DNA of 43,798 nt from a bacterium (GTDB taxonomy: Bacteria; Myxococcota_A; UBA9160; SZUA-336): contig JAAELY010000386.1 of the NCBI GenBank assembly GCA_024226335.1, positions 1-43,798 of the forward strand, in the 5' to 3' direction. Made by a program: the position numbers and the translations under genes. Numbering within the stretch: the stretch's first letter is position 1; each line of letters begins with the position of its first letter. Below are positions 1 through 43,798 of the stretch, piece by piece. A model generated the notes under the pieces. The model made no database searches. It was not told the DNA's origin and was given only the letters and a program-made list of their open reading frames with translations.

Positions 1-505
1 ATACATAGGCGTCCGGCACCCACAGACTGAACATACCGAGCCCTAGGGAATCTTCGCACAGGGAGGAATCGAGCGAGAAGCGGGAGTCGCCGCCTGAGCA
101 AGAAGCGTGATCCGATCGCAGATCCGTAGATCTGCAGAGGGTCGCGCGACGCAGCGCAGGCGGATGCATCGCGCTTCGCAGTCGCAGCCTCCCTGTGCAG
201 AGGTTCCCTAGCCAGTTCCCCAGGTTCTGGACGCCGTAGCCGCTCTGGAACATCGGAAGCGCCCCATCGGGAAGACTGGCCGCGCTCGCAGGCACCATGG
301 GATATGCCTGTGTTACGCCGACGATCGCGATCAGGGACGCGAAGGCCAGGCCTCCGAAGAGCGGATCGATCGACCATCCGTTCATCACTCGCCACTCCCG
401 CTGCAGTACTCGCGGGCGTTCGTTCAGATAGTTGAGTTTCTGGCTGTACGGGAACAGGTACAAGAAGACGAGCGAGGCGAGCACAAGCGCAATCCGTGGC
501 GACAC
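1..505 (-). CDS. Truncated membrane protein carrying an in-frame repeat insertion (partial, 3' end off the window)
   Basis: A stop-free minus-strand frame runs from a GTG at 505-503 to the window edge. It begins 8 bases after the stop of the endonuclease-like gene, as the next gene of the same operon would. The N-terminus is hydrophobic (IALVLASLVFLYLFP), with a second likely membrane segment (LFGGLAFASLIAIVGV). The motif KLNYLNERPRVLQ is vaguely like the start of some bacterial integral-membrane glycosyltransferases, but I do not assign a family. Codons 99-153 are contributed by the 169-bp repeat element. Removing 165 bases between the two CTAG ends restores the reading W-L-G-L-G-M-F-S-L-W. 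No clear ribosome-binding site precedes the GTG, so an earlier start overlapping the upstream gene is possible. Whether the product is still functional is unknown. Confidence 0.55.
   Translation of the reverse strand, partial: MSPRIALVLASLVFLYLFPYSQKLNYLNERPRVLQREWRVMNGWSIDPLFGGLAFASLIAIVGVTQAYPMVPASAASLPDGALPMFQSGYGVQNLGNWLGNLCTGRLRLRSAMHPPALRRATLCRSTDLRSDHASCSGGDSRFSLDSSLCEDSLGLGMFSLWVPDAYV
43..211 (+). mobile_element. MITE-like 169-bp terminal-inverted-repeat element, copy A
   Basis: The element begins CTAGGGAA and ends TTCCCTAG. The outer 24 bases of each end are inverted repeats of one another, nearly perfect apart from a few substitutions. The interior holds a perfect hairpin GCAGATC-CGTA-GATCTGC at 118-135. 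The same 169-base unit recurs in reverse orientation at 43630-43798 with five mismatches that I counted by eye. There is no transposase and no room for one, so it would be non-autonomous. CTAG is present at both ends and may be the duplicated target. The element lies in a coding frame of the minus-strand gene. Alternatives are a REP/ERIC-like intergenic palindrome or an RPE-like protein-inserting repeat. Confidence 0.85.
118..135. repeat. Perfect internal hairpin of the repeat element
   Basis: Seven-base arms (GCAGATC / GATCTGC) around a CGTA loop lie near the middle of copy A. The same hairpin is conserved in copy B, where the mismatches fall elsewhere. Conservation of the hairpin suggests that folding of the DNA or RNA matters to the element. 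Confidence 0.7.
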
Positions 506-513
506 CCGGTGAC

Positions 514-1317
514 TCAGAACGGCTCGGTTCGGAGGCGTGCGAAAACGCCGAAGTGATCACTTGGCCAGACGTTACCGGCCTGTTCATCGCACACGACGCG
601 ACACGATTCCAGGTGGCCTACGCCGTTGCGCAGCGGAAAGCCCGTGAAGATGTAATCGATGCGGCGATCGGGTTCGAGTTCCTTGCTCGCATACGTGTTG
701 CGATTCGACCAGGTCGTCCCATCCCCCTGCCCGGCCACTTTCCAGGCATCGTGAAAGGCAACACTGCGACCATCGATGGAATGAAGACCGGTCATATAGC
801 GGATCTCATCCGACTCCGGCTCGGCGTTGAAGTCGCCAACGATGATCGGGGGGAATCCGTTCTGATCGCGCAGGCGAAGCACCTGGTCACACAGACGGAC
901 CACCTGTTGCTCGCGAGTGACGCCGTGATGGAACATCCAGTGCAAGTGGGTGTTCGAGAAGCACAACGGACCGTGGGGTGAGTCGATGCTCACGGTCAGA
1001 GCGGAACGCTTTTCCCAGTCTCCGCGATCCGGGAGTCGCAACTCCTCTCGCGAGGTAATCGGCCAGCGACTCGCAATCGCGTTCCCAAAACGGAGTTCGG
1101 GATCTCCCCAGAAGGGAACCGCGTCGACGAAATCGAGTTCATAGGCACGATCGCCGATCAGTTCGGCCGCCAGATCCACGTCCTTTCCGCGCAGCACTTC
1201 CTGGAACCCGATCAGATCGGGTTCCAGTCGATCGATCCAGCCCCGAATCAGCTCTGATCGATCCTTCCAGGGGCCCGAGTTGTGCCAGAGGTTCAGTGTC
1301 AGAACCGACAAGCTCAT
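514..1317 (-). CDS. Endonuclease/exonuclease/phosphatase (EEP) family protein
   Basis: This 267-residue protein has the fold signature of the DNase I/AP endonuclease/sphingomyelinase superfamily, which hydrolyses phosphodiester bonds with a divalent metal. Visible catalytic motifs are LTLNLWH (Asn9), GFQEV (Glu40), NTHLHW (His124), GDFNAEP (Asp162, Asn164) and SDHFGV (Asp254, His255). All the usual metal and general-base positions are therefore present. There is no signal peptide, so it is probably cytoplasmic. The ATG is preceded by GGGAG at a good distance. It follows the SDR gene by 11 bases and is followed after 8 bases by the truncated membrane protein, suggesting one operon with the acyl-CoA ligase. 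The substrate (nucleic acid, phospholipid or other) cannot be told from the sequence. Confidence 0.9.
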   Translation of the reverse strand: MSLSVLTLNLWHNSGPWKDRSELIRGWIDRLEPDLIGFQEVLRGKDVDLAAELIGDRAYELDFVDAVPFWGDPELRFGNAIASRWPITSREELRLPDRGDWEKRSALTVSIDSPHGPLCFSNTHLHWMFHHGVTREQQVVRLCDQVLRLRDQNGFPPIIVGDFNAEPESDEIRYMTGLHSIDGRSVAFHDAWKVAGQGDGTTWSNRNTYASKELEPDRRIDYIFTGFPLRNGVGHLESCRVVCDEQAGNVWPSDHFGVFARLRTEPF

Positions 1318-8481: not shown

Positions 8482-8617
8482 TGACACCAGATAGCTGCGG
8501 GCGACGGTGCCCTATCGGGCCAGACGAGGCCCTGAGCCGCCCTATTCCGGGCACAGTGCTTGCTGTTTCCAAGGGGAGATCTCAGGAGACGGGACGCGTA
8601 CAATGCGGAGATGCGAA

Positions 8618-12377: not shown

Positions 12378-13456
12378 AACCAATAGTCCTGATCCTGGTA
12401 TCGACGATGCTACTGGCCTGTGCGGATCCGGTGGACCGCAGCTATCTGGACACGGACGACCCAGTCGTCGAGCGCGAGTCCGACGATAGCCTGGTCATTC
12501 ACTGGCGGGTGGCTCCCGAGAGTGCCGAGATTCCCGTGTACGCCGGAACGGTTCCGGGAAGCTTCAATCGCGCGAAGCCGGTGGCAACTCTAGTCAATGG
12601 GCGGGCACGAATTTCAGGGCTCGATCCCGCGACGAGATTCTATTTCGAGATCGCAGCCCCTGGCTCGAAACCGCTGCGTGTGGCCGAACGAAAGCTCCCG
12701 TTGGAAGGCGCACACAATTTTCGCGATCTGGGCGGCTACCGCGGACAGGATGGCCGACGTGTGCGCTGGGGAGTCATGTTCCGCTCCGACGCACTCGGGG
12801 AACTCAGCGATAGCGATCTCGATTATGTTTCGCGCGTCAAGCTGCGACTGGTCTGCGACTTTCGCAGTCCGAAAGAGCGCGAGGCAGCGCCCGATCGTCT
12901 ACCTGAGCGCGACCGTCCCAGTGTCGCGGAGCTGGCAATCTACGACGAGTCCTTCGACCCCGAAATGTTGCGCGATCGCATCCTGTCGGGCGATCTCGAG
13001 GGCCTCGATCTGGCGCAGATGCTCGTCAACGCGAATCGTGAGTTCGCTCGCCGTTTCACTGCACAGTACGCGAAGATGTTCGAATATCTCCTTGAGCCCG
13101 GAAACCTGCCAGCCGTGATTCACTGCACTGCGGGAAAAGACCGGGCGGGTTTTGGTTCGGCAATCTTGTTGTTGGCGCTCGGAGTCGATCGAGAAACTGT
13201 CTTCGAGGATTTCCTCTTGACCAACACCTACATCGCCGCAGAGACCGAAAAGAGTCTCCGCATGATCCGGATCTTCTCGCTCTTCCGCGCCGACCCGGAA
13301 AAAATCCGCCCGGTACTGGGCGTGCGGCGGGAGTATCTCGAAGCCGGTCTGGATGAAATCGACAAGCGCTTCGGGTCCTTTGAAGCCTACCTGCACGATG
13401 GATTGGGACTCAGTGCCGGGAATATCTCCCGCCTCCGGGAGCGCCTGCTCGAATAG
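12374..13456 (+). CDS. Tyrosine/serine phosphatase lipoprotein
   Basis: The GTG start gives a 360-residue protein with a lipoprotein signal (MKPIVLILVSTMLLAC, Cys16). Residues about 35-105 look like a fibronectin-III-type beta domain. The phosphatase part begins with the family hallmark AHNFRDLGGYRG (about 113-124) and continues with VMFRSDAL and LVCDFRSPKERE. The active-site loop is HCTAGKDRAG: Cys251 nucleophile and Arg257, the CX5R motif. This is the bacterial tyrosine-phosphatase-3 type, in some species active on phosphoinositides or phosphoproteins. Lipid anchoring places it outside the cytoplasm. It is coupled to the GNAT gene, with the GT2 gene only 34 bases downstream. Confidence 0.92.
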   Translation: MKPIVLILVSTMLLACADPVDRSYLDTDDPVVERESDDSLVIHWRVAPESAEIPVYAGTVPGSFNRAKPVATLVNGRARISGLDPATRFYFEIAAPGSKPLRVAERKLPLEGAHNFRDLGGYRGQDGRRVRWGVMFRSDALGELSDSDLDYVSRVKLRLVCDFRSPKEREAAPDRLPERDRPSVAELAIYDESFDPEMLRDRILSGDLEGLDLAQMLVNANREFARRFTAQYAKMFEYLLEPGNLPAVIHCTAGKDRAGFGSAILLLALGVDRETVFEDFLLTNTYIAAETEKSLRMIRIFSLFRADPEKIRPVLGVRREYLEAGLDEIDKRFGSFEAYLHDGLGLSAGNISRLRERLLE

Positions 13457-42277: not shown

Positions 42278-43561
42278 TCAGGAGCGGACGCGATGAATCC
42301 GCAAGCGCCGAATGCGCCGCGCGGAAGCATCGACGACCTCGAGGCGGATGCCTTTTTCGAGCTCGACGAATTCGCCGACCGCGAGCATGCGTCCGCTCTT
42401 CGAAAGAGCGATGCCCGCAACCGTGGACCAGCTCTCGCTCTCCGGCAGGCTCAAGCCCATGGCCCGGTTGACCGCGTGTACCGGCATCTCGCCGCGCACG
42501 ACCGCTGTACCACTTTCCTCGTGCACGATCCATTCACGCGGATCTTCGTCTTCCTTGAAGATGTCACCGACGAGTTCTTCGACGAAGTCCTGCGCCGTCA
42601 CGACTCCGGCCAGCTCGCCGCGTTCGTCGACGACCATTGCGATTTGCGTGCGATTCCGTTGCAACTCGCGAAGCCCCTTTGAGGCCATCGTGGTCGATGG
42701 AACAAAGAGTGCAGGGCGCAGCAGATCGTCGAGATCGACCCGGTTGCGTTCCACGAGCATCAGGAGCGCATCCCGCGTCACCAGATAACCCACGACATTG
42801 TCGAGATCTCCGTCGATGACCGGGTAGCGCTGATGATCGCCACTACGCAGAAGGGATATGGTCTCCTCCGGCGCTGCTGCACGATCGATCGCGGTGATCT
42901 GCGAGCGCGGAACCATGACCGCGGCGACTGTCAGATGGCCGAAATCGAAGGCGCGTGAAGCGATCTCACCGGTACGTCGGTCCAGCGAGCCGGACTCCGC
43001 CGCTTCCTCGACGACGGTTCGCAACTCATCGGGAGAAAGACGCGACTCGGAAAACGTCGTTTCGTCGTTGAACAGTCGCAATAGGAAGTTGGTGGCCCCG
43101 ACGAGAATGGAGATGAAAGGCCTCAGAAGAATCGACAGACCGAGCAACGGGCGTCCCACGGTCAGCGCGTAGCGTTCCGCGGTGCGCAAGGCGAGCGATT
43201 TGGGAACCAGCTCACCCAGCATCAGGGCAAAGAACGATATCCCCGCGACGACCAGCGCAATGCTGATCTGCTCTCCGTACGGCACCCCCAGGTTGCCCAG
43301 TAGTTCGCCAAGGGGCCTTGCAAGGCGAGCTCCGCCAAATGCGGCTGCGCCAGCCCCCAGAACCGTTATGCCGATCTGTACCGTGGCCAACAATCGCTCG
43401 GGTTCAGCCCGCAGGCTCTCCAGCGCGCGCGCGCTACCTTTGCCCAGATCAGCGAGTTCGGAGATGCGCGTGCGGCGCATCGACAGGATCGCGATTTCTG
43501 CGCCGGCGAAAACGCCGCTCGCGAGAATCAGCGTCAGGATGGTCCCGAGTTCAGTCAGCAC
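42278..43561 (-). CDS. HlyC/CorC (CNNM-type) transporter family protein
   Basis: The gene gives 427 residues from GTG at 43561 (GGAG nine bases upstream); a GTG at 43591 would add ten. The N-terminal DUF21/CNNM membrane domain reads TILTLILASGVFAGAEIAILSMRR, with GITVLGAGAAAFGG and FFALMLGELVPKSLALR. Two CBS domains follow (VMVPRSQITAIDRAA ... HQRYPVIDGDLDNVVGYLV; RNRTQIAMVVDERGELAGVVT). The C-terminal CorC_HlyC domain contains ESESWSTVAGIAL and a basic tail. Such proteins are proposed Mg2+/Co2+ transporters with adenosine-nucleotide sensing by CBS. It is convergent with the Lrp gene. Confidence 0.92.
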   Translation of the reverse strand: MLTELGTILTLILASGVFAGAEIAILSMRRTRISELADLGKGSARALESLRAEPERLLATVQIGITVLGAGAAAFGGARLARPLGELLGNLGVPYGEQISIALVVAGISFFALMLGELVPKSLALRTAERYALTVGRPLLGLSILLRPFISILVGATNFLLRLFNDETTFSESRLSPDELRTVVEEAAESGSLDRRTGEIASRAFDFGHLTVAAVMVPRSQITAIDRAAAPEETISLLRSGDHQRYPVIDGDLDNVVGYLVTRDALLMLVERNRVDLDDLLRPALFVPSTTMASKGLRELQRNRTQIAMVVDERGELAGVVTAQDFVEELVGDIFKEDEDPREWIVHEESGTAVVRGEMPVHAVNRAMGLSLPESESWSTVAGIALSKSGRMLAVGEFVELEKGIRLEVVDASARRIRRLRIHRVRS

Positions 43562-43629
43562 GCAGACAGTCTCCACGCATCGGAGAGTCACCGCAAGCGG
43601 CCCGCGTGGCGACCCAGAGGCGGGGAGAG

Positions 43630-43798
43630 CTAGGGAACCTCTGCACAGGAAGGCTGCGGCTGCGAAGCGCGATGCATCCGCCTGCGCTGCGTCGCGCGAA
43701 CCTCTGCAGATCTACGGATCTGCGATCGGATCACGCTTCTTGCTCAGGCGGCGACTCCCGCTTCTCGCTCGATTCCTCCCTGTGCAGAGATTCCCTAG
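43630..43798 (-). mobile_element. MITE-like 169-bp terminal-inverted-repeat element, copy B
   Basis: The reverse complement of this segment matches copy A at 43-211 over the whole 169 bases with five mismatches. It starts CTAGGGAA and ends TTCCCTAG at the last base of the window. It lies upstream of the CorC-family gene, outside any coding frame that I can support. Because the window stops exactly at the end of the element, I cannot see the right flank or test for a target duplication. Confidence 0.85.

Follow-up and report, generated by a model that had tools for sequence, protein, structure and literature searches.

Copies of a 161-bp palindromic element, one of which lies near the start of the window in frame within a predicted gene, mostly lie on the stop codons of complete genes when both of their flanks can be read, and the in-frame insertion of the window copy is the exception, not the rule. 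(The window is the whole stretch of DNA analysed here: 43,798 bp, one entire contig, C386, of a source assembly of 5.75 Mb in 556 contigs.) We consider it very likely that the element is of a known kind, and that its CTAG target, together with the loss of harmful insertions, parks its copies on stop codons.

The window copy occupies positions 47 to 207 on the plus strand, with its A-end (GGAATC) on the left and its C-end (GGAACC) on the right. It is bounded by CTAG target-site duplications at 43 to 46 and 208 to 211, with 161 bp between them, exactly where a preliminary description had placed them. The ends of the element are GGAATCTCTGCACAGGGAGG and GGAACCTCTGCACAGGGAGG, and its terminal inverted repeats (GGAAYCTYYGCACAGGGAGG, about 20 bp) face each other. 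Either strand of the imperfect palindrome is predicted to form a long hairpin (-110 and -92 kcal/mol, z = -10.9 and -7.0). Searching the genome for the element recovers at least 40 full-length copies of 96-100% identity, and the exact A-end is counted 74 times, so that the true copy number is about 75 or slightly above. Twenty-nine of the copies read are exactly 161 bp long; the other lengths are 160, 147, 96 and 83 bp. Copies are flanked on both sides by CTAG, TTAG/CTAA or mutated forms: mostly CTAG, TTAG in one copy, and CTAG/CTAA or CCAG mixtures in a few. An Rfam scan of the window gives no match at the gathering score, the 89 other genomes of the class contain no full match to the element, and plasmids contain no match.

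A second copy, 97% alike to the first, lies on the minus strand at 43634 to 43794 (43630 to 43798 with both CTAG duplications), and C386 terminates exactly at its outer CTAG. This copy is at least 38 bp upstream of an ORF at 42278 to 43591 (minus strand), whose product looks by eye like the CBS-domain membrane proteins of CorC/HlyC type. At the other end of the contig, the first 141 bases of C386 recur in reverse at the start of contig C194 (L023 1-141) as an identical overlap. Given this overlap, and given that many contigs start or stop within the element, a main reason for the fragmentation of the assembly is the element itself. The window also contains a weak pair of 37-bp inverted repeats (8487 to 8523 and 12413 to 12449), 73% complementary and 3.9 kb apart.

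Insertion sequences of the IS5 group duplicate a YTAR target, most often CTAG, a tetranucleotide that is under-represented in bacteria (PMC10359306, PMC5493358); judged by its sequence, the duplication around the element is this YTAR duplication. Traces of such insertion sequences are present in the same genome: contig C289 has a broken IS5-type transposase gene, with CTAG GGAATTTCCGCAG ahead of the remnant and a fragment assigned to the IS5 family transposases by NCBIfam NF033581 (1.3e-16), and contig C452 opens inside another such gene, of which it carries the 3' part, followed by the end GGAACCTCTGCACATG and then by CTAG. No complete autonomous insertion sequence was found in this assembly. 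Across the genome_contigs collection, the string CTAGGGAACCTCTGCACA is present in many genomes, Binatota, deltaproteobacterial and acidobacterial ones among them. Two elements, L206 (1,180 bp) and L251 (1,174 bp), carry CTAG next to GGAACCTCTGCACA at both ends, and their transposase genes are 329 and 333 codons long; that of L206 matches NF033581 (transpos_IS5_4) at 5e-97, and L206 aligns with the C289 remnant. A Binataceae genome has a short element that shares these ends and has a unit of 112 bp. Short elements of their own with these ends (112-bp and 222-bp units) occur at L185, L216 and L223, in Binataceae MAG011 and a proteobacterial MAG, with many in MAG011.

Since its ends and its CTAG are common to these IS5-type elements and remnants, the element is in all probability a non-autonomous IS5-family MITE: it is short (161 bp), free of transposase and bounded by terminal inverted repeats, its target duplication is a 4-bp YTAR, and its ends equal those of the autonomous IS5-family elements L206 and L251. 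Compared with IS5-family insertion sequences proper (NF033581; IS5 group, YTAR), it shares the terminal GGAACCTCTGCACA and the 4-bp CTAG duplication but is only 161 bp long, lacks a transposase and is almost wholly palindromic. Movement would be in trans, by an IS5-group transposase to which the remnants and the elements of other genomes point. The transposase of contig C542 was set aside as a partner, as it belongs to a different insertion sequence and matching ends are absent from the stretch read. At L042 (1283-1764), a single copy occupies the stop codon of one gene and also interrupts a convergent, decayed IS5-type transposase gene close to its 3' end. MITEPsy1 of Pseudomonas syringae is a probable IS5-type MITE of 100 bp that resembles the present element in its shortness, its probable IS5 origin and its duplication of CTAG or YTAA, and differs in its few copies, its length and its sequence; stop-codon placement is not described in the consulted part of the source (PMC3189936). 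For IS5-type MITEs in general, we found no description of stop-codon placement in the open-access literature; one may exist elsewhere.

The ORF that hosts the window copy is read from a GTG at 505 on the minus strand (2 to 505). As the preliminary description reported, the two duplications stand in the phase CTA-G (211 to 208 and 46 to 43), 165 bp or 55 codons apart, and the frame is free of stops through the whole element within the window. The 3' end of the frame lies outside the window; after C386 is joined to C194, it ends at 187 codons, 19 of them in C194, which leaves 132 aa without the insert. The host ORF has a codon score of +17.5, whereas none of the five remaining frames scores above -9.7, and its GC content by codon position is 0.65/0.44/0.73. 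It starts 9 bases past the end of an endonuclease/exonuclease/phosphatase family gene directly upstream in the same direction (514 to 1317, minus strand; PF03372, 5.9e-23). Its predicted product is membrane-like and an orphan. The preliminary description had looked to orthologues lacking the 55 residues for confirmation, and none came to light: no relative of the 132-aa protein was detectable in the 89 other genomes of the class, a search of genome_contigs at close-relative sensitivity found nothing, and there is no Pfam match. The best hit (G009, 5e-5) was rejected as an orthologue; it falls within a large membrane protein resembling a proton pump and was taken as a match of composition.

There is some chance, although we think it the less probable case, that the host frame is no real gene and that the element sits in a non-coding stretch separating the phosphatase gene from its neighbour, its open frame being accidental. 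The orphan status of the protein and the codon score of -1.3 over the 33 codons past the insertion site speak for this, but the 99 codons ahead of the site score +18.2 with a gene-like pattern of GC by codon position, and the ORF follows closely on its neighbour in a genome of which predicted genes make up 92% of the 444 kb sampled. The host could encode a genuine small membrane protein that evolves fast, or it could be non-functional. We infer that the window copy was inserted by chance in an ORF under weak constraint, of which the fusion protein is a putative product.

Placement of the other copies was assessed with a home-made codon-score gene caller, not with curated annotation, run on the same 444 kb. 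Ordinary CTAG sites (n = 212) divide into 101 within genes, 60 intergenic and 51 (24%) at the stop codon of a gene. About half of all element copies are visible from one side only; the 31 copies with both flanks were rebuilt as empty sites, and 24 of these lie on a stop codon (as C-TAG), 4 are intergenic and 3 are in genes, an excess at stop codons over the ordinary sites with a Fisher p of 1e-8. Among the one-sided copies, which lie at contig ends, a gene ends at the duplication in 20 of 66 flanks versus 51 of 417 control sides (p = 5e-4). The genes that end at the duplication are ordinary and complete: dapB is full-length, matched to profile position 270 of 270, and genes for a short-chain dehydrogenase, glucose-6-phosphate isomerase and an amidase are matched to or near the ends of their profiles. 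The orientation of the element relative to the gene is unbiased (20 versus 22). Intergenic palindromes of the REP/ERIC type also form hairpins just 3' of genes in either orientation, as the element does; it differs from them in its clean target duplications and in having an identified, if putative, IS5 family partner. At L092 (rpiB-like by eye) and L040, the element lies near the 3' end of a gene, and only the C-terminal tail is altered or extended.

These placements would follow from the ordinary behaviour of an IS5-type element. An IS5-group transposase would mobilize the MITE in trans, duplicating a 4-bp YTAR that is nearly always CTAG. Upon insertion at nnC-TAG, the first CTAG would stay, and the protein would be unchanged because the duplication restores TAG: the upstream gene would retain its stop codon and the exact end of its product, with the hairpin directly 3' of the intact gene. 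Insertion within a gene would usually be harmful and the copy lost, and CTAG is rare in coding DNA to begin with. Stop-codon placement would thus follow from stop-restoring insertion, loss of insertions within genes and the rarity of CTAG, with no need for a special mechanism. The window copy would have entered its host in the one orientation in which both usable phases are open, adding 55 residues and leaving the frame unended.

For an active preference of the element for stop codons, the data are no more than suggestive. We judge it improbable that, beyond the effects of CTAG and selection, stop codons or the 3' ends of genes are actively preferred by the transposase or through the target DNA. 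After gene interiors are excluded, stops account for 24 of 28 two-flank copies, compared with 51 of 111 CTAG sites (p = 2e-4), and pooling with the one-sided flanks gives p = 0.011, but the one-sided set by itself does not reach significance (p = 0.19); hence selection against gene interiors is perhaps not the whole story, or the effect is smaller than it appears. The bases outside CTAG also set the copies apart from ordinary sites, with C at -3 and G at -5 and -1, so that the target of the element may be longer than four bases. Selection on intergenic CTAG sites as well, as in promoters, may however mimic a preference, and other genomes with the same end sequence are only weakly enriched at stops (18 of 82 versus 59 of 459, for ORFs of at least 150 aa, p = 0.04). 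Slightly less probable again is the fuller proposal that stop codons are actively chosen by the IS5-type machinery of this lineage, which would recognize either a target extending beyond CTAG or the state of the DNA at the 3' ends of genes, and that the hairpins act as portable 3' ends for the genes they follow. Our preferred reading thus remains the CTAG target combined with the loss of harmful insertions.

The preliminary description had also suggested that the element was selected for an open frame, and had pointed to a second stop-free frame on the same strand. This second frame (phase CT-AG) is indeed free of stops in the consensus, and the other strand has one stop in each usable phase. 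An open frame by itself is not improbable, since about 12% of random imperfect palindromes of this size have one or both strands without a stop in either usable phase, a rough figure because the simulation used ungapped self-complementarity, and since the prior chance that a length such as 165 is divisible by 3 is one in three. Nothing points to selection for coding or for an open frame: the 29 copies contain 41 distinct substitutions, of which 2 create stops in the open phases versus about 1.8 expected under neutrality, and the length variants of 160, 147 and 96 bp violate the 3-base rule, as does the 112-bp Binataceae unit. In view of this neutral rate of stop gain, we rejected the possibility that the peptide of the element has a coding role.

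Inspection of the other copies, likewise proposed earlier, is favourable in one respect: all three in-gene copies, namely that of the window, L038, in a gene of the PhyH family, and L034, in a degenerate frame that weakly matches CN_hydrolase, are in the open orientation, which has a chance of 1 in 8. L038 and L034 have each gained an in-frame stop within the element, and only the window copy is uninterrupted. The genome has two related PhyH-family genes, the one interrupted at L038 and another, L057, with a short copy at its stop codon. L146 was dropped as an interrupted gene owing to its weak score and early stop. L105, a one-sided copy near a contig end, has the open orientation too; its frame runs directly into a signal sequence like that of a lipoprotein, to which it may supply a new N-terminal stretch or start.

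Rickettsia palindromic elements, to which the window copy had been likened, are palindromes of about 150 bp that can sit in frame in an ORF (PMC10969869); about half of them are inside genes, versus about one in ten here, where most copies are on stop codons. That the present element is of this type, kept in coding genes with an open frame that is tolerated or useful and adds a peptide, is very improbable: the open, in-frame window copy, the shared orientation of the in-gene copies and the L105 copy agree with it, but the copies are strongly depleted within genes (3 of the 31 with both flanks, compared with 101 of 212 ordinary CTAG sites), only one of these 3 is still open, and the frame is not kept among copies, given their neutral gain of stops and their off-frame lengths. 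What stands of the original interpretation is a mobile palindrome inserted in frame, and open, in a coding-like ORF; the likeness to Rickettsia and the selection for an open frame are not supported.

A lone in-frame palindrome is therefore weak evidence for protein insertion of the Rickettsia kind. Elements of the present sort break short-read assemblies at the ends of genes. Where the duplicated target contains a stop, its duplication at the end of a gene rebuilds the stop codon, and by this route a mobile element can reach many copies harmlessly in a gene-dense genome; a clear prediction follows for every IS5-type element that targets CTAG.
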